Assembly (NCBI RefSeq): GCF_002160325.1 | Contig: NZ_NFKJ01000006.1 | Location: forward strand, 1-64,000 | Direction: 5' to 3' | Length of the DNA: 64,000 nt | From: Lachnoclostridium sp. An181 | GTDB lineage: Bacteria; Bacillota; Clostridia; Lachnospirales; Lachnospiraceae | Shown here: positions 833 through 7,059 of the stretch, piece after piece | Position numbering within the stretch: the first letter of the stretch is position 1 | Layout: each line of letters starts with the position of its first letter | Translations under genes and position numbers: made by a program | The notes under the pieces: model-generated | What the model was told of the DNA's origin: nothing | Seen by the model: only the letters and a program-made list of their open reading frames with translations | The model's database searches: none

Positions 833-858
833 TTTGTTTAAAGGAGGTATTGTTCTTG

Positions 859-1257
859 ATGCAAAATGAACGAGTACGTACAATAAGAAAAGCCTGTGAT
901 TTAACTATGGAAAAATTTGGAGAACGAATAGGGGTTGCTAAAACTACAATATCTGGCATAGAATCAGGTCATCGTAACCTTACTGAACATATGAAAAAAT
1001 CAATCTGTCGTGAATTCAATGTCAACTACACCTGGTTGGATTCAGGTGAGGGTGAAATGTTTTTAGACTCTGATGATGAAATCATGGAAACAATCGACCG
1101 CATCATGGCTGGTGAAAATGAGTTTCATAAAAACCTCTTTAAAACCTTTGCCCGTTTAGATGAAGAAGATTTACTTGCATTGGAGCATGTGATCAATACT
1201 TTCCTTGACGTCAGCGGTAAAACGAAAAAATCTCCTCATTCCGAACAATCACTTTAA
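859..1257 (+). CDS. Phage-type XRE family transcriptional repressor
   Basis: This 132-aa protein has an N-terminal Cro/CI helix-turn-helix (residues about 4-60, with GERIGVAKTTISGIESG as the recognition unit), then the segment YTWLDSGEGEMF often seen in repressors of Firmicutes phages and integrative elements, and a helical C-terminus for oligomerisation. There is no peptidase domain. The ATG at 859 lies 11 nt after AAAGGAGG, and a TTG at 856 is an alternative start. It is divergent from the 47-aa ORF and is probably the master repressor of the element, binding the 783-797 palindrome and possibly others. Confidence 0.8.
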   Translation: MQNERVRTIRKACDLTMEKFGERIGVAKTTISGIESGHRNLTEHMKKSICREFNVNYTWLDSGEGEMFLDSDDEIMETIDRIMAGENEFHKNLFKTFARLDEEDLLALEHVINTFLDVSGKTKKSPHSEQSL

Positions 1258-1279
1258 TACATCTTTTCCTTTCTATAGC

Positions 1280-1313
1280 TCTGGTAATTTCTAATTACCG
1301 GGGTTTTTATTTT
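1280..1313 (+). terminator. Rho-independent terminator after the repressor
   Basis: A stem CTGGTAAT/ATTACCGG with a short loop is followed by a T-rich run, 23 nt after the repressor stop codon. Confidence 0.7.
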
Positions 1314-1355
1314 TCACACATCTCCTTTTACTTTCTACTTTCAAGTTCTGAAACG

Positions 1356-1616
1356 TCATCTTTTCTCGTACCGAATTTCGGTACATCTTTTATTTCTCTT
1401 TTCTCTTGTTTCATTTTTGGAAACTTCATGTGCAAAAAAAATTTGCTCTATGGATTCTCCAAAGTTATTGGAAATTGCTCTTGCCTCATTTAAAGAGAAT
1501 TTCACAGATCCTTTTTCTTTTTTACTATAATTTACTTTTGATGTATGTATGATTGCCGCAAAATCTTCCTGTTTAAGCCCTTTGCTTTCGCGAAACACTC
1601 GTACTGTTGTTACCAT
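1356..1616 (-). CDS. XRE family regulator (86 aa)
   Basis: The small protein is almost entirely one helix-turn-helix domain (residues 4-62, with QEDFAAIIHTSKVNYSKKEKG as the core) plus a basic tail. AAAGGAGG precedes the ATG. The gene is divergent from the tandem-HTH gene at 1779. GTTTC-N7-GAAAC boxes crowd the intergenic space and one lies inside its own 3' half, which suggests autoregulation and control of the divergent gene. A GTACCG palindrome overlaps its last codons. An antitoxin-like role is possible, but no toxin partner is seen. Confidence 0.7.
   Translation of the reverse strand: MVTTVRVFRESKGLKQEDFAAIIHTSKVNYSKKEKGSVKFSLNEARAISNNFGESIEQIFFAHEVSKNETREKRNKRCTEIRYEKR
1368..1384. promoter_or_regulatory. 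GTACCG palindrome, copy 3
   Basis: GTACCGAATTTCGGTAC overlaps the 3' end of the 86-aa XRE gene. It is the only copy not placed before a gene start, so it may act as an auxiliary or looping site, or be a remnant. Confidence 0.55.
1408..1424. promoter_or_regulatory. GTTTC-N7-GAAAC box inside the XRE gene
   Basis: GTTTCATTTTTGGAAAC is identical to the box at 1632-1648 in the control region but lies within the coding sequence of the XRE gene. An intragenic operator would let the protein block its own elongation or form a loop. Confidence 0.5.
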
Positions 1617-1631
1617 CTGTTCCTCCTTTCT

Positions 1632-1736
1632 GTTTCATTTTTGGAAACCTTTTGATTTTATCATAGTTTCTTTTTTTGAATTTGTCAACAGATATTTTCA
1701 TTTTTGGAAACCTTCATTGATTTCATTTTTTGAAAC
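1632..1736. promoter_or_regulatory. Cluster of GTTTC-N7-GAAAC operator-like boxes
   Basis: The intergenic region between the divergent XRE (1616) and tandem-HTH (1779) genes holds boxes at 1632-1648 (GTTTCATTTTTGGAAAC), 1695-1711 (first base changed) and 1720-1736, plus a degenerate one at 1666-1682. The 17-bp unit has inverted arms GTTTC/GAAAC around an AT-rich centre. Such clustering suggests cooperative binding by one of the flanking HTH proteins. Confidence 0.6.
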
Positions 1737-1778
1737 CTTATAATGAAACTTATCAAGAGAATATATGAGGTACAGATT

Positions 1779-2378
1779 ATGACATTTGGTGCAAAACTAA
1801 AAGAATTACGACAAAACAACGGATTAACTCAAAGTGAACTTGCTATAAAACTGGATACATCAAAATCCAATATTTCAAAATATGAGTCAAATTCCATTGA
1901 GCCCAATATAAAGACACTTTTACTCATATCGAAATATTTCCAAATCTCCATTGACGAATTGCTCGCCGAAGAAACAATGAATATTCCCTCTTCTCTTTCT
2001 TCAAATGGTCAACATTTTTGTAAAATTCTTTCTCATTTACGAAAAGAAAAAGGAATTTCTCAACACGAGTTAGCCAAGTATATTGGAATCAGCCGTGAGG
2101 CAATCACAAACTTGGAAATCAATAAAAGAAAACCTGATATGGAAATATTGATAAAACTTGCGGACTATTTTGACGTATCTACAGATTTTCTTCTGGGTCG
2201 AATTCCAGCAGATTCAAAATTCGATACTGCAGCACTAACAGCTGAAGAACAAGATATCTTGAACTACTATCATCAATTATCGCTTACTAATCAGCGTTGG
2301 ATTATGGGACAGATAATCGATTTAATCAAGCGATCTGAAGAAAACGATTCTGAATCTAAAAAGGCTATGGGGAAATAA
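1779..2378 (+). CDS. Regulator with two tandem XRE HTH domains
   Basis: The 199-aa protein carries two complete Cro/CI-type domains: residues about 3-60 (LTQSELAIKLDTSKSNISKYE) and about 75-138 (ISQHELAKYIGISREAITNLE), then a helical tail with WIMGQIIDLIKRSEEN. The ATG at 1779 follows TGAGG; an upstream ATG at 1743 lacks a ribosome site. Two DNA-binding domains in one chain could read a long palindrome as a monomer or tether two operators. Its closest relative in the window is the frameshifted gene at 2507, which shares the layout and the tail (RWIVGQMVDLIKKGE), so the two arose by duplication. Confidence 0.75.
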   Translation: MTFGAKLKELRQNNGLTQSELAIKLDTSKSNISKYESNSIEPNIKTLLLISKYFQISIDELLAEETMNIPSSLSSNGQHFCKILSHLRKEKGISQHELAKYIGISREAITNLEINKRKPDMEILIKLADYFDVSTDFLLGRIPADSKFDTAALTAEEQDILNYYHQLSLTNQRWIMGQIIDLIKRSEENDSESKKAMGK

Positions 2379-2432
2379 TTAATTTTTTTAAACGCCAATA
2401 ATCTATTCGTAGTTTTAGATTTACTTTATAAA

Positions 2433-2457
2433 AGGTGTACCGAATTTCGGTACACCT
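2433..2457. promoter_or_regulatory. GTACCG palindrome, copy 4 (extended)
   Basis: The core GTACCGAATTTCGGTAC (2437-2453) is extended here to a 25-bp palindrome by AGGT and ACCT arms, making it the longest copy. A TATAAA (2427-2432) lies just upstream, so the palindrome would cover the transcription start of the tandem-HTH pseudogene. Binding would block the promoter. Confidence 0.65.
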
Positions 2458-2506
2458 GATTTGCACACTGACTGAAAGCTTAACTTTTATACCTGGAGGT
2501 TTTCAT

Positions 2507-3141
2507 ATGATAGGGAATATGATTTGCAAGTTGAGAATGAAAAATCAATATACACGGAAGAACTGGCAACCTACTTGAATCTTTCTACAAGTACAATAGG
2601 AATGTACGAACAAAACCGTCGTTCACCCGATTTAGATACACTCTTACAACTTGCTGAGCTGTTTCATGTGTCTACAGATCAATTATTAGGTATTGAGCCT
2701 TATGAAGAAAACGATATATCCGAACCTTCAGCTTTTACTTTAGGTCAAAAAATTCGCTGTTTAAGAGAAAAGGAACATCTGACACAATACGAGCTAGCTC
2801 AAAAACTTTTTTTGACTCCCAAGATGATTTCCTTCTATGAGCATGATCAGCGAATTCCTCCAGCTGATATGTTGATCAAACTTACACAAATTTTCCATGT
2901 TAGCGCTGATTATCTACTGGGATTAGAGTACAAGAACAATCATACAGGTAAAACATCTCCATCCTGGAATGAAATTGTTTCCCTTTTTCCTAACGTTGCA
3001 TTACTCACAGATGAGGAAGAAGAACTGTTAAAATACTATCATTCTCTCTCCCTAATGAATAAACGATGGATAGTTGGACAAATGGTTGATTTAATCAAAA
3101 AAGGAGAAAAAAGTACTTCTATACAAAATCCAAAAGAATAG
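2507..3141 (+). pseudogene. Tandem-HTH XRE regulator, apparent 1-nt frameshift
   Basis: CTGGAGG and the ATG at 2507 open a frame reading MIGNMICKLR, the expected start of an XRE domain, but this frame ends within 25 codons. The continuation (NEKSIYTEELATYLNLS) is in another frame from about 2536. Restoring one A near 2534-2537 would join KLR to NEK and give about 211 residues with two HTH domains (second: LTQYELAQKLFLTPKMISFYE) and the same C-terminal tail as the neighbour at 1779. Either the gene is inactivated, a shift occurs in translation, or the read has an error. A TTG at 2524 could start the second frame but has no ribosome site. Confidence 0.65.
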
Positions 3142-3206
3142 CAAATACTTTTCAGCCTTCCGAAAATAATTTTTTATCTTTAAAATTTATTCTATTATAA
3201 ATAAGC

Positions 3207-3223
3207 GTACCGAATTTCGGTAT
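3207..3223. promoter_or_regulatory. GTACCG palindrome, copy 5
   Basis: GTACCGAATTTCGGTAT has one mismatch in the last base. TATAAA (3196-3201) lies 5 bp upstream, the same spacing as at copy 4, so the palindrome covers the probable start of transcription of the membrane protein gene at 3258. Confidence 0.6.
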
Positions 3224-3257
3224 GGTTTCTATATTAAGATGCAAAGGAGAAAAACCT

Positions 3258-4436
3258 ATGACTACATCTGAATTATTAAATATCCTTCTATCCTCTGCTG
3301 TCATTGTAGCATTGATTGAATGGATATCAAAAAACAAATCTAATTATCTGCAGCACATTACCAATAACCGAGCTGAATGGAGAAAAAGCCTGAAGGATAT
3401 CTCTGTCAAATTATATAAATCCGATAAAAGAACAATCGGTTCTGTTTTTACTGAATTAAAGGTAAATCTGAACAGTTACGGGTTGCACCCTTCTGGAAAC
3501 TATCCATTCCAAATAAAACTGGATTATTTGAAAGATGAACATTTATGGGCAGAAATGGACGAGATCCAAACTAATCTGTCCTCTATGTCTTCAAAAGAAT
3601 TTTTACAGAAAAAAGAACGTATGGTTGAAATGATCTCACTATTATTGAAATTTGATTGGGAACGTTCTAAAAGGGAAGTACATTCCAAAGTCATCATACC
3701 TTTTGGACTTGTGTTATATCTCTGTCCCCTTCTTTTTATAAATAAAAATCTACTACAGTCTGAACTTATTCCCATCGTAGTTTCTTTACTTGCATCTTAT
3801 TTTCTATTTTGGAGCCCATTTTTTATATATTCATATTCCCTTTTTCGTCACAGACATTGGTATAATGACCTCTCTTTACTACTTATTCTTTGGAGTATAG
3901 CTGTATTATTTTTGTTACAAGCAATCAACCTACTACCAAAACATCATTTTTCGATTATTTTTTTCTTATTGACCGTCCTAATTATCTTTTCTTATATTCT
4001 TGATTTTTATCAGATGTATGGGCGCTATGAACAAGCACTTTTACAATTTTATCCTTATAAAATTGCTGTCTTTGCATCAACTTTCAATTCCTGGACTACA
4101 CTCATGCTTCTACCTTTCTTATGCTGTTTTAATGACTACAACATTAAAATTGATGATCAAAAATTTACACGAGAATTTTTCCAGGATTCTGAGTTTCAAC
4201 TTATATTGTCAAAGCTCTCTTCTGAATCAATCATAAAAAAAGACTCCGATATCCTGAAGATCCGAAGTCGTGTTTGGTATTACTTTAAGAAAAAATTGAA
4301 TTCCAACTTATGTGTTTCCGAGTTTATTGCGAAAAAGCCTAAGCGTTGTCGTATAATCATTAAACACTGCAGTCACTCACATCCAACTTACACTCTTTGT
4401 TCACTCTTTAGAAATAAACAGTATTGGGAATCATAG
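3258..4436 (+). CDS. Multi-pass membrane protein of the element, unknown function
   Basis: The 392-aa protein starts at an ATG 9 nt after AAAGGAG; an upstream in-frame start at 3222 lacks one. A first hydrophobic segment (residues about 5-21) is followed by a basic stretch (ITNNRAEWRKSLKDI), then about five strongly hydrophobic segments between residues 145 and 290, and a basic cysteine-containing C-terminal tail. The N-terminal layout (one helix, then an RxxWR region) resembles membrane proteins I have seen on mobile elements, but no function is assigned. Control by the GTACCG palindrome ties it to the integration module. Effector roles in defence or superinfection exclusion are only guesses. 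Confidence 0.65.
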   Translation: MTTSELLNILLSSAVIVALIEWISKNKSNYLQHITNNRAEWRKSLKDISVKLYKSDKRTIGSVFTELKVNLNSYGLHPSGNYPFQIKLDYLKDEHLWAEMDEIQTNLSSMSSKEFLQKKERMVEMISLLLKFDWERSKREVHSKVIIPFGLVLYLCPLLFINKNLLQSELIPIVVSLLASYFLFWSPFFIYSYSLFRHRHWYNDLSLLLILWSIAVLFLLQAINLLPKHHFSIIFFLLTVLIIFSYILDFYQMYGRYEQALLQFYPYKIAVFASTFNSWTTLMLLPFLCCFNDYNIKIDDQKFTREFFQDSEFQLILSKLSSESIIKKDSDILKIRSRVWYYFKKKLNSNLCVSEFIAKKPKRCRIIIKHCSHSHPTYTLCSLFRNKQYWES

Positions 4437-4476
4437 AGAAACTAAATGTCTAATGATAAACATTTTTAATTTTTTT

Positions 4477-5187
4477 CTATTCTGCTGGATGCTTTGATAA
4501 ATATCTTGAATAATCAGTATCAAATTGTAGTGATTTAAGCTGTTCATCTATAATTTGTAAAAGATTCTTCCCTTCAAGAATAGATTCAAATTCCTTAATA
4601 GAAAAATCAATTATGCAATATCTATCTTCTATTCTTTCCTTATGAAGATAGAATTTCTTAATCAATCCCGCACCATTATTCCATCCTGTTCCACTAATAC
4701 CATGATATGAAAATAAAATCCCTAATTTTATATGATTTGTCAATAGTAAGCTACAAAATTTTCCTACATATGTAACGCTAACTGCTTTTTGGTAATTTTT
4801 ACATTCCCCTATAAAAGTTTTCAATCTTTTATCAATTATATGATTCCCTAATAAAATTTTCCCTTTTGGCGTTAAAGAAATAACTTGATCTATCTCATTT
4901 GTTGAGGTTCTCAAATTTGTATCTACACAAAAAATTCCTCCAGAAATAGACAACAGATATGATACTAGCCTTTCTAAAGCATCTCCCTTTAAATTATGTG
5001 AATTTTTAACCGCCTTATCTTCAGATGATATAAAATGAAATTTCTTAAATTCATTAAGTAAAGTTTTATAAGTATGTATTTGACAATCGCTTAATTGACA
5101 AATTTTTTCATATCTAAATTCATCAGAAAGAGAATTAAGTATATTCAATGCTTTAGAAATTTCTCGTTCTTCAAGATTAATCATCAC
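4477..5187 (-). CDS. PD-(D/E)xK nuclease, restriction-endonuclease-like (Mrr-like)
   Basis: The 236-aa protein has an N-terminal helical part and a nuclease core from about residue 65. Visible elements are E72 in KGDALERLV, D100 in STNEIDQVI, and E128-x-K130 in FIGECKNYQKAV, followed by a helix VGKFCSLL; these match the E, D and (D/E)xK positions of Mrr/AHJR-type endonucleases. It is the last gene of a four-gene operon and overlaps the zinc-ribbon protein by 11 nt, so translation is coupled. The likely role is cutting DNA when the partner proteins sense a foreign element. All core residues are present, so it looks active. Confidence 0.7.
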   Translation of the reverse strand: MMINLEEREISKALNILNSLSDEFRYEKICQLSDCQIHTYKTLLNEFKKFHFISSEDKAVKNSHNLKGDALERLVSYLLSISGGIFCVDTNLRTSTNEIDQVISLTPKGKILLGNHIIDKRLKTFIGECKNYQKAVSVTYVGKFCSLLLTNHIKLGILFSYHGISGTGWNNGAGLIKKFYLHKERIEDRYCIIDFSIKEFESILEGKNLLQIIDEQLKSLQFDTDYSRYLSKHPAE

Positions 5188-5542
5188 GTACCACCAAATA
5201 TATTAAAAATGAATTTTCTAATGTTGAAAGTTCACAATGACAAAGTTCACACTCAAAAAAATCCGGTAATTCATTAAATAATCGCACAACCCCCATAGAT
5301 TTTTGGCAGTTACTACAATATAACTCATAATAACTTTGTAAAATTCCTTGTTCTTCTAATGCTGATAAAAAATCATAAATTTCTGAAATAGATAGAGAAA
5401 ATTTTCTCTTTAAAACCCCTGGATAAATCCACATATTTTTCTTATAATTTCTAAAGAAATTAATTAAAGCGGTATTATCTACGTTCTTATTCAGTTTTTG
5501 CTGTATCGTCATTTCTATGGCTGATAATGTATTCAATAACAT
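5177..5542 (-). CDS. Small protein with HTH-like region and zinc ribbon
   Basis: In this 121-aa protein the C-terminal half carries two cysteine pairs, CSNC and CELC (with a further C-E-L), that would form a zinc ribbon. The N-terminal half (KFSLSISEIYDFLSALEEQGIL) looks like a winged helix. The start at 5542 overlaps the upstream gene by 56 nt; an in-frame ATG at 5512 reduces this to 26 nt. The nuclease gene starts before this one ends. A DNA-binding or sensing adaptor for the nuclease is plausible but inferred. Confidence 0.6.
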   Translation of the reverse strand: MLLNTLSAIEMTIQQKLNKNVDNTALINFFRNYKKNMWIYPGVLKRKFSLSISEIYDFLSALEEQGILQSYYELYCSNCQKSMGVVRLFNELPDFFECELCHCELSTLENSFLIYLVVRDD

Positions 5543-5705
5543 AATTCATCCGCTCCATTCCAATTAGCACGTTACTATAATAATATTGAATTAAAGAATA
5601 TGATTTATTCATATAGTTAGTAATCAATTTAATATGATTACTTCTGGTCTTTATTTCATTTTCCCATAACAATTCGATCCAAGGATAATCAGACATCTCT
5701 TCCAT
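5487..5705 (-). CDS. Hypothetical small protein of the four-gene operon
   Basis: This 72-aa protein is rich in aromatic and asparagine residues (WIELLWENEIKTRSNHIKLI, SYSLIQYYYSN) and looks helical. Its ATG directly follows the stop of the upstream 289-aa gene, and its 3' end overlaps the zinc-ribbon gene. No domain is recognised. The tight packing argues that it is a real subunit and not a chance frame. Confidence 0.5.
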   Translation of the reverse strand: MEEMSDYPWIELLWENEIKTRSNHIKLITNYMNKSYSLIQYYYSNVLIGMERMNYVIEYIISHRNDDTAKTE

Positions 5706-6575
5706 TTAAAACATAAATTGTTCTATTGCCACTCTAAAATCAGGTACTTTTTCTAGCTCAGCTTGTTTATCGTTTAGTAATGATCGAAGTTCTCCAATAA
5801 AAGGAAGTACATATTCTTGATTATTTCCAACTTCTAGCTGCGCATTTCCTCCACTAGGTAATATCATAGATTGAGCAATTAACTTTACGGTTTCATCATG
5901 TTTACATACATTAAGCATAAAATCTAAGTCCAAAGGAATTAAATCACACTCAAAATGTTCCTTCAAATAATCTATCATTTCATCAATTAAGCTAGAATAT
6001 ATGGTTACCTCTTTTTTATCAGACAAAAATACTCTCTTTAAAACATCAAAACGAAATTCTATTAGTTCACCTTTCTCATGAAAAACCACTAAAAATGGAT
6101 ATTTAGTTAAAAACTCTTCTTGTGTCAAAGGATGAATGGCTGCATACGCTAAATTAAATTTCAAAAAAAAGTAACCCTCTTGAGCATATGTGACTGGTCT
6201 TATAAACGAAGTATAAACGTACTCATTTTCGTAACAATCTTTAGAAGGAGAAATTTCTTTTACCTTTTTTAAAACAGCAGAAAAATCATTACAAGTAAAA
6301 ATAACTGAATATTTGTAGTCTTTCAAAAACTCCCATTTTTCTAAATATTGACGTGCGCGCTGACTTTGATTAAAACAAGCTAAAAACTGGTCTGATAATA
6401 CTTTTTCGGAAATATCTACAATTTCCATCCCATCCAAGTATAATTGTCCAGATGTATCTACTTGTTTCGTTGCAATCCCTTCCTCAATAAATTTTTTTAT
6501 CAAATGCCGTTTAACTTTATCTGGATAAGCTATTACTGTTTTTTTTAAATACTCTAAATAATTTTTTTCCTGCAT
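5706..6575 (-). CDS. Hypothetical protein, first gene of the four-gene operon
   Basis: The 289-aa protein has no motif that I recognise. It appears soluble, with an alternating alpha/beta pattern and no signal peptide or membrane segment. The N-terminus is basic and helical (LKKTVIAYPDKVKRHLIKKF), and the C-terminal part includes a glycine-containing turn (ILPSGGNAQLEVGNNQEY). It leads an operon of four genes that touch or overlap and end with the nuclease. A TATAAT (6611-6616, minus strand) lies upstream. AT-richness matches the rest of the element. A sensor or target-recognition role is only inferred from position. Confidence 0.55.
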   Translation of the reverse strand: MQEKNYLEYLKKTVIAYPDKVKRHLIKKFIEEGIATKQVDTSGQLYLDGMEIVDISEKVLSDQFLACFNQSQRARQYLEKWEFLKDYKYSVIFTCNDFSAVLKKVKEISPSKDCYENEYVYTSFIRPVTYAQEGYFFLKFNLAYAAIHPLTQEEFLTKYPFLVVFHEKGELIEFRFDVLKRVFLSDKKEVTIYSSLIDEMIDYLKEHFECDLIPLDLDFMLNVCKHDETVKLIAQSMILPSGGNAQLEVGNNQEYVLPFIGELRSLLNDKQAELEKVPDFRVAIEQFMF

Positions 6576-6853
6576 ATAACCACTCTTTTCCTATGTATAT
6601 CTTTATTCTGATTATACTTGATATAATAATAAAAAGCTATAAATAAGTAATAAATTACGCAGTTTTCTACATTTTTGTTATATTTAGTAAAAACCTCAAT
6701 TTCAAATACAACCATACTGAGTTTCAATACACAAATTAAAAACCTATTTTGATCTCTAGCTATTCTGACTATTTTTTTGACTACTTTTTTTCAGCAAATC
6801 TCAGCAAATTTAGCTCCATTTTAACAAATCTCTCTTTTAGAATACTATACACA
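6576..6853. other. Non-coding AT-rich junction next to tRNA-Thr
   Basis: There is no gene here. It holds the probable promoter of the four-gene operon (TATAAT on the minus strand at 6611-6616) and, near 6765-6815, short direct repeats: GACTA followed by T runs twice, and AGCAAAT twice. On the minus strand this gives repeated TAGTCA, a pattern I associate with integrase-proximal ends of Gram-positive elements. This is the likely right boundary of the integrated element, but no matching repeat could be identified at the other end because that lies outside the window. Confidence 0.4.
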
Positions 6854-6906: not shown

Positions 6907-6915
6907 CTCTTTAAA

Positions 6916-6987
6916 GCTGGAAAAGGGACTTGAACCCTCGACCCCTTCATTACGAGTGAAGTGCTCTACCGACTGAGCTATTCCAGC
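6916..6987 (-). tRNA. tRNA-Thr (anticodon CGU)
   Basis: This 72-nt cloverleaf on the minus strand has acceptor arms GCTGGAA/TTCCAGC, anticodon stem CTTCA/TGAAG with loop CTCGTAA (anticodon CGT), and T arm GAGGG-TTCAAGT-CCCTT. CCA is not encoded. Its 3' end faces the integrated element at 1-6850, a classic integration position for tyrosine-recombinase elements. Confidence 0.95.
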
Positions 6988-7059
6988 TTGTAACTGCATG
7001 TCACAACGACTATTATATCATAAACTTGTGATTATGCAACTACTTTCTTCCCTTTTCTT

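Follow-up and report, generated by a model that had tools for sequence, protein, structure and literature searches.

What does a compact, AT-rich block of minus-strand genes beside a tRNA-Thr gene encode, and do its products form a defence system? The question arises at 4477–6575 of a 64,000-nt stretch of Lachnoclostridium sp. An181 DNA (hereafter, the window), where a first-pass annotation had read a four-gene operon, carried as cargo by an element and ending in a Mrr-like nuclease, as a candidate system that had not been described before.

A three-gene cassette carried by a mobile element

Four minus-strand open reading frames (ORFs) of 289, 72, 121 and 236 codons were confirmed at this locus, abutting or overlapping one another. 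However, the 289-codon ORF continues in frame into the 72-codon ORF, with nothing but a TAA at 5706–5708 between them, and every close relative with an intact gene carries in their place a single uninterrupted ORF (~340–390 aa among relatives). Single ORFs covering both pieces also occur in genome G147 and viral contig L007, as well as in genomes that are less closely related. The locus therefore holds three genes, designated A, B and C, of which the first is broken. Four separate genes are ruled out by the shared frame; the number, strand, lengths and tight packing of the ORFs in the first-pass annotation stand. The features are as follows.

5487–6575, minus strand: gene A over its full frame of 362 codons, the in-frame stop counted; encodes a protein not yet described, predicted to have an RdgC-like fold, and is interrupted here
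5706–6575, minus strand: 5′ fragment of A, 289 codons
5706–5708, minus strand: in-frame TAA in gene A, codon 290, with an ATG directly after it
5487–5705, minus strand: 3′ fragment of A, 72 codons; the C-terminal part of A and not a separate gene
5177–5542, minus strand: gene B, 121 aa; winged-helix-like N-terminal part and CxxC...CxxC; overlaps A by 56 nt
4477–5187, minus strand: gene C, 236 aa, GTG start; predicted Mrr_cat-like PD-(D/E)xK nuclease; overlaps B by 11 nt
4972–4974, minus strand: E72 of the C nuclease core, invariant in 36 homologues
4888–4890, minus strand: D100 of the C nuclease core (in TNEID), invariant in 36 homologues
4798–4806, minus strand: E128-C-K130 of the C nuclease core (in GECKNY), invariant in 36 homologues
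4448–6850, no strand: stretch with the whole cassette, absent from sister element L095 (sister comparison)
3222–4436, plus strand: gene of the host element for a 404-aa putative membrane protein, outside the cassette (ORF call and sister comparison)
6914–6988, minus strand: tRNA-Thr(CGT), marking the element's end on the attachment side; the sister element repeats ~46 nt from the 3′ part of this gene

The AT-richness noted earlier is evident in a GC content of ~27–30% across the cassette stretch versus ~43% in the chromosome beyond 7000, and the tRNA-Thr gene lies beside the cassette as described. The cargo status of the genes was borne out by a sister element (L095) on contig C1 of the same genome. 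This element carries the same 404-aa gene (84.6% identical at the DNA level) and a tRNA-side end 94.6% identical to that of the window, and has 154 nt where the window has 2.4 kb holding the cassette. The absence of this 2.4 kb from the sister element identifies the cassette as a discrete cargo unit. The sister copy of the 404-aa gene has an in-frame stop near codon 103. On the other side of the element in the window, four HTH-type regulators are encoded at 850–3141, two of which have two HTH-like segments each; short repeats beside them, near 189–215 and 3195–3222, recur in the sister element. A promoter and terminator scan performed no better than on shuffled sequences.

The stop in A is either recent, tolerated through a restart at the adjacent ATG, or an assembly or sequencing error. 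Because A is interrupted in the window, this copy may be inactive; barring a translational restart at that ATG, it probably has no activity or has lost it recently. A related reading, which concerns this copy and is compatible with any function of intact copies, takes the cassette in this genome for a decaying pseudo-operon. We hold it to be about as likely as not. The stop itself speaks for decay, as do broken copies elsewhere, in which A (L030, L042 and L067) or C (L023, L074 and L077) is truncated or split. Against it, neither B nor C is disrupted, the invariant catalytic residues are in place, and the window cassette contains no further stop or frameshift besides the TAA. Moreover, dN/dS relative to the nearest relatives is low for both halves of A, for B and for C, mostly 0.08–0.2 (B versus L031, 0.33), and the 3′ fragment scores as low as the rest of A. 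The further broken copies indicate that loss of the cassette is recurrent; intact copies are common, and those are the ones worth studying.

Conservation and spread of the cassette

Within the family, a search with A was positive for 6 of the 397 genomes, counting the source genome. Scanning with an alignment of C recovered 9 viral contigs and, across a collection covering 84,980 species, 50 loci. The loci are mostly from Lachnospiraceae and other Clostridia, with further members in Lactobacillus, Lactococcus, Desulfosporosinus, Clostridium and Caloranaerobacter. By profile mapping, A, B and C keep one order and lie on one strand in ~45 loci, a constancy that refers to loci neither broken nor cut by a contig end; the genes singled out in the window stay together across many genomes and mobile elements. 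All three are full length in 39 of these loci, and A and B overlap by 41–110 nt in every one of the 39. Pairwise protein distances are strongly correlated (A–B, 0.96; A–C, 0.92; B–C, 0.88), with 0 of 999 permutations as high, and the three genes have one common history. The unit is a three-gene cassette encoding proteins of ~360 aa (A), ~121 aa (B) and ~236 aa (C).

Natural fusions suggest that the proteins act together. B and C form one protein in the distant relative L014, and a 420-aa protein of a proteobacterial prophage (L024) is probably an A–B fusion, its B part being recognized weakly (E = 0.029). A possible one-gene relative is encoded at positions 376–1965 of L015: one protein of 529 aa, whose C-terminal Mrr-like domain is related to C, with neither A nor B adjacent.

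The cassette is mobile cargo. Copies reside in Firmicutes chromosomes, prophages, conjugative elements and chromosomal insertions, and some stand alone in ordinary chromosomal surroundings (for example, L008 and L028). Seven Staphylococcus phage records, Henu2 and six others, carry it; in the two that were inspected, Henu2 among them, it sits between the endolysin and integrase genes and is annotated as hypothetical proteins. In viral contig L007 the cassette adjoins an integrase gene and phage packaging genes, the packaging gene being what we take it to be from reading its ORF. The 138 flanking ORFs of relatives include 5 phage integrases, 5 DUF5720 and 2 DUF961 proteins, resolvases, type II methyltransferases, and 4 OloA and 2 OloB matches, from the Olokun defence system; these are raw counts without a control set and so do not amount to a test of enrichment. 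DUF5720 and DUF961 proteins are known from conjugative elements. In five related conjugative elements (L036, L037, L040, L042 and L048), the cassette apparently occupies one position after a DUF5720-like gene, and in several of them it is followed by a two-gene unit (~616 and 535 aa) which probably accounts for the Olokun match. Searches of a plasmid collection with window C, with a distant C and with the DNA all came back empty.

Sequence and predicted structure of the three proteins

Several observations indicate that C is a nuclease. Numbered as in the window protein, residues E72, D100, E128 and K130 do not vary among 36 homologues, in agreement with the E, D and E-x-K positions named in the first-pass annotation. 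The Pfam family Mrr_cat matched 12 of 14 homologues (E up to 0.1; best, 6.6e-6); window C by itself gave E = 0.024 and 15.2 bits, below the Pfam cut-off of 21 bits. The AlphaFold model of C (pLDDT 86.7) has a PD-(D/E)xK fold and resembles the Nt.BspD6I nickase (Z = 10.9), AF1548 (10.6), FokI (9.9), Card1 (8.9), AspBHI (8.7), Can2 (8.5), NucC (7.7) and McrC (7.1). No significant sequence relatives of C were found in the PDB, and the Mrr N-terminal DNA-binding domain was not among the Pfam matches of the 14 homologues. Thus, the assignment of C, by predicted fold and active site, as a PD-(D/E)xK nuclease related to Mrr_cat is well supported, and the original label of a Mrr-like nuclease holds.

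For B, the proposed combination of a winged-helix-like part and a CxxC...CxxC ribbon is likewise upheld. Its cysteines (C76-x2-C79 and C98-x2-C101) are at least 90% conserved in 36 homologues. The N-terminal part has weak winged-helix matches, including eS25 at 3.6e-5 in a PDB profile search, and a few B members match HTH families of the TrmB, MarR, FUR or IclR type; the C-terminal part has weak zinc-ribbon matches. Considered together with the gene overlaps and natural fusions, these features suggest that B may serve as an adapter or read DNA.

A was said to resemble nothing known, and by sequence this proved correct: no significant match was found in Pfam, PADLOC or NCBIfam, PHROGs returned families of unknown function only, and no significant relatives were found in the PDB. 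Among 15 A members searched against PADLOC, one gave a match, to GajA at 0.0079. No homology between A and C was detected. A structural lead comes from the AlphaFold model of an A homologue (L028; pLDDT 80.8, pTM 0.83). Foldseek ranked RdgC first (E = 9e-4, probability 0.97, TM ~0.3), and VIA-align also placed RdgC first, with Z scores of 10.2 and 9.9 over ~200 residues, against a usual noise level that the tool states as Z ~7–8. In a viral library the top match was a phage protein named “exonuclease” (probability 1.00), a frequent name of phage RdgC proteins. The next matches, to the kinetochore proteins Iml3/CENP-L and CENP-N, have Z ~7, within the usual noise.

Sequence comparison gives no such connection. 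Profile alignment with hhalign returned probabilities of 0.2% for A versus RdgC and 0.1% for A versus RexA, HMM searches of A against the two families scored below shuffled controls, and neither the Pfam scans nor a search of the source genome matched A to RdgC (PF04381). Membership of A in RdgC or RexA by sequence is thereby ruled out. Since this sequence relation is missing, the resemblance to the RdgC fold stays a lead of moderate strength, and we assign A to neither family. For lambda RexA, a published crystal structure is reported to have the same fold relatives, RdgC, Iml3 and Chl4, and the protein is reported to bind DNA non-specifically (PMC11077077). With a predicted fold like that of RdgC, A may perhaps resemble RexA too.

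Proposed function and comparison with known systems

Based on these data, we propose, with a probability of roughly 55%, that A–B–C encodes a mobile nuclease system, not described so far, that targets DNA and most likely serves as a module for phage defence or exclusion, carried by prophages, conjugative elements and elements at tRNA sites. C would be the effector, a PD-(D/E)xK DNase. A would engage the DNA of the invader or a replication or recombination intermediate of it, and B would join A to C and/or read DNA, such that recognition by A and B would license C to cut with neither an ATPase nor a helicase involved. Gene content, order, overlaps, joint inheritance, conserved catalytic residues, the modelled nuclease fold and mobility are direct observations; the defence function, its trigger and the role of A are inferred. 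A more specific version, which we put forward tentatively and regard as doubtful, is that A, with a fold of the RdgC, RexA and Iml3–Chl4 kind, clamps or encloses invading DNA and loads the nuclease through a winged-helix/zinc adapter. This would constitute a nucleotide-independent DNA-sensing defence and might make A a prokaryotic relative of CENP-L/N outside RdgC and RexA.

Two other readings compete most closely with a defence module: restriction that depends on DNA modification, and regulation of the life cycle of the element itself. In the former, B and/or A would read a modified base or site and C would cut, as in Mrr, McrBC and MspJI-type enzymes. The kinship of C with Mrr_cat, its structural matches to AspBHI and McrC, and the fact that no methyltransferase belongs to the cassette all fit such a type IV-like enzyme. 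However, neither an N-terminal Mrr domain nor any known type of reader domain (SRA, PUA-like) turned up among the matches of A, B and C, and no GTPase or other motor is encoded; we consider this reading unlikely. A similarly low likelihood attaches to a life-cycle or maintenance module acting in replication, recombination or the control of lysis and lysogeny, with A working like RdgC or RexA and C processing the element's own DNA. The predicted fold of A resembles a recombination-associated protein, RexA has been reported to bias the lambda switch (PMC11077077), and many copies lie in prophages. Yet the sister element in the same genome does without the cassette, which moreover is found on element types unrelated to one another and, in chromosomes, on its own, and in Henu2 its position between endolysin and integrase is outside the replication module. 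A toxin–antitoxin-like arrangement, in which C would be a toxic nuclease restrained by A and B, could account for translationally overlapped genes that end in a nuclease and for their mobile distribution; with three components, and with no significant match to a known toxin or antitoxin family among the scanned proteins, it appears quite improbable.

The defence reading would bear on a compact, conserved cassette of gut Clostridia, lactic acid bacteria and Staphylococcus aureus phages whose products are called “hypothetical protein” wherever we saw an annotation. If A–B–C serves in defence or exclusion, it provides a further layout, one in which an ATPase, a methyltransferase and a signalling enzyme are all absent. 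If the proposed fold of A is also correct, an RdgC/RexA-type fold, paired in lambda with a membrane protein, is here tied to a DNase, and what Rex-like proteins sense, a problem that has long resisted solution, becomes testable with a clear enzymatic read-out.

No description of the three-gene layout was found in PADLOC, Pfam, NCBIfam or the open-access papers searched, and the open-access literature returned nothing for “Rst_3HP”. In PADLOC-DB 2.0.0, neither A nor the layout had a significant match, and window B and window C had none. A known PADLOC, Pfam or NCBIfam system is ruled out by this lack of a significant match for A and the layout, and the first-pass annotation's suspicion of an undescribed system was sustained by the profile searches in all three databases. 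Its statement that no methyltransferase, ATPase or helicase is present also agrees with the ~45 loci, where the conserved set comprises A, B and C only and has no ATPase domain. Cassettes with a nuclease effector are common, and the present combination, with no ATPase, methyltransferase or signal enzyme and with a partner that may be RdgC-like, matches none that could be tested.

Individual components can be set beside known proteins. C shares with Mrr and Mrr_cat (PF04471) the E...D...E-x-K core, the profile match and the modelled PD-(D/E)xK fold, but its chain is without the Mrr N-terminal domain and it belongs to a fixed three-gene set. Weak profile matches connect some of the 36 C homologues to the PADLOC candidate system PDC-S02 (5 homologues; best, 3.5e-4) and to PD_DExK nucleases (4 homologues; best, 5.3e-5), although these lack the three-gene layout, A has no significant match, and window C is unmatched. 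Gabija, Lamassu, Septu, DISARM, BREX and ABC-3C depend on an ATPase or helicase, in contrast to A–B–C. RdgC, a recombination-associated DNA ring (PF04381; PDB 2owl and 2owy), is the best structural match of the A model; A differs in having no detectable sequence relation to it, an extra N-terminal domain of ~80 residues and a tie to a nuclease. Iml3/CENP-L and Chl4/CENP-N are the next structural matches, with CENP-N aligned from residue 3, but they are eukaryotic, score within the usual noise and are absent from the results of the PDB profile search with A, so that a relation of A to these kinetochore proteins is a lead only. The RexAB phage exclusion system is likewise prophage-carried, and its RexA is reported to have the RdgC/Iml3/Chl4 fold (PMC11077077); RexABpp of Pseudomonas putida is a reported anti-phage system (PMC12894663). 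A–B–C departs from RexAB in its partners: in all complete loci, A is accompanied by a nuclease and a winged-helix/zinc protein rather than by the membrane protein RexB.
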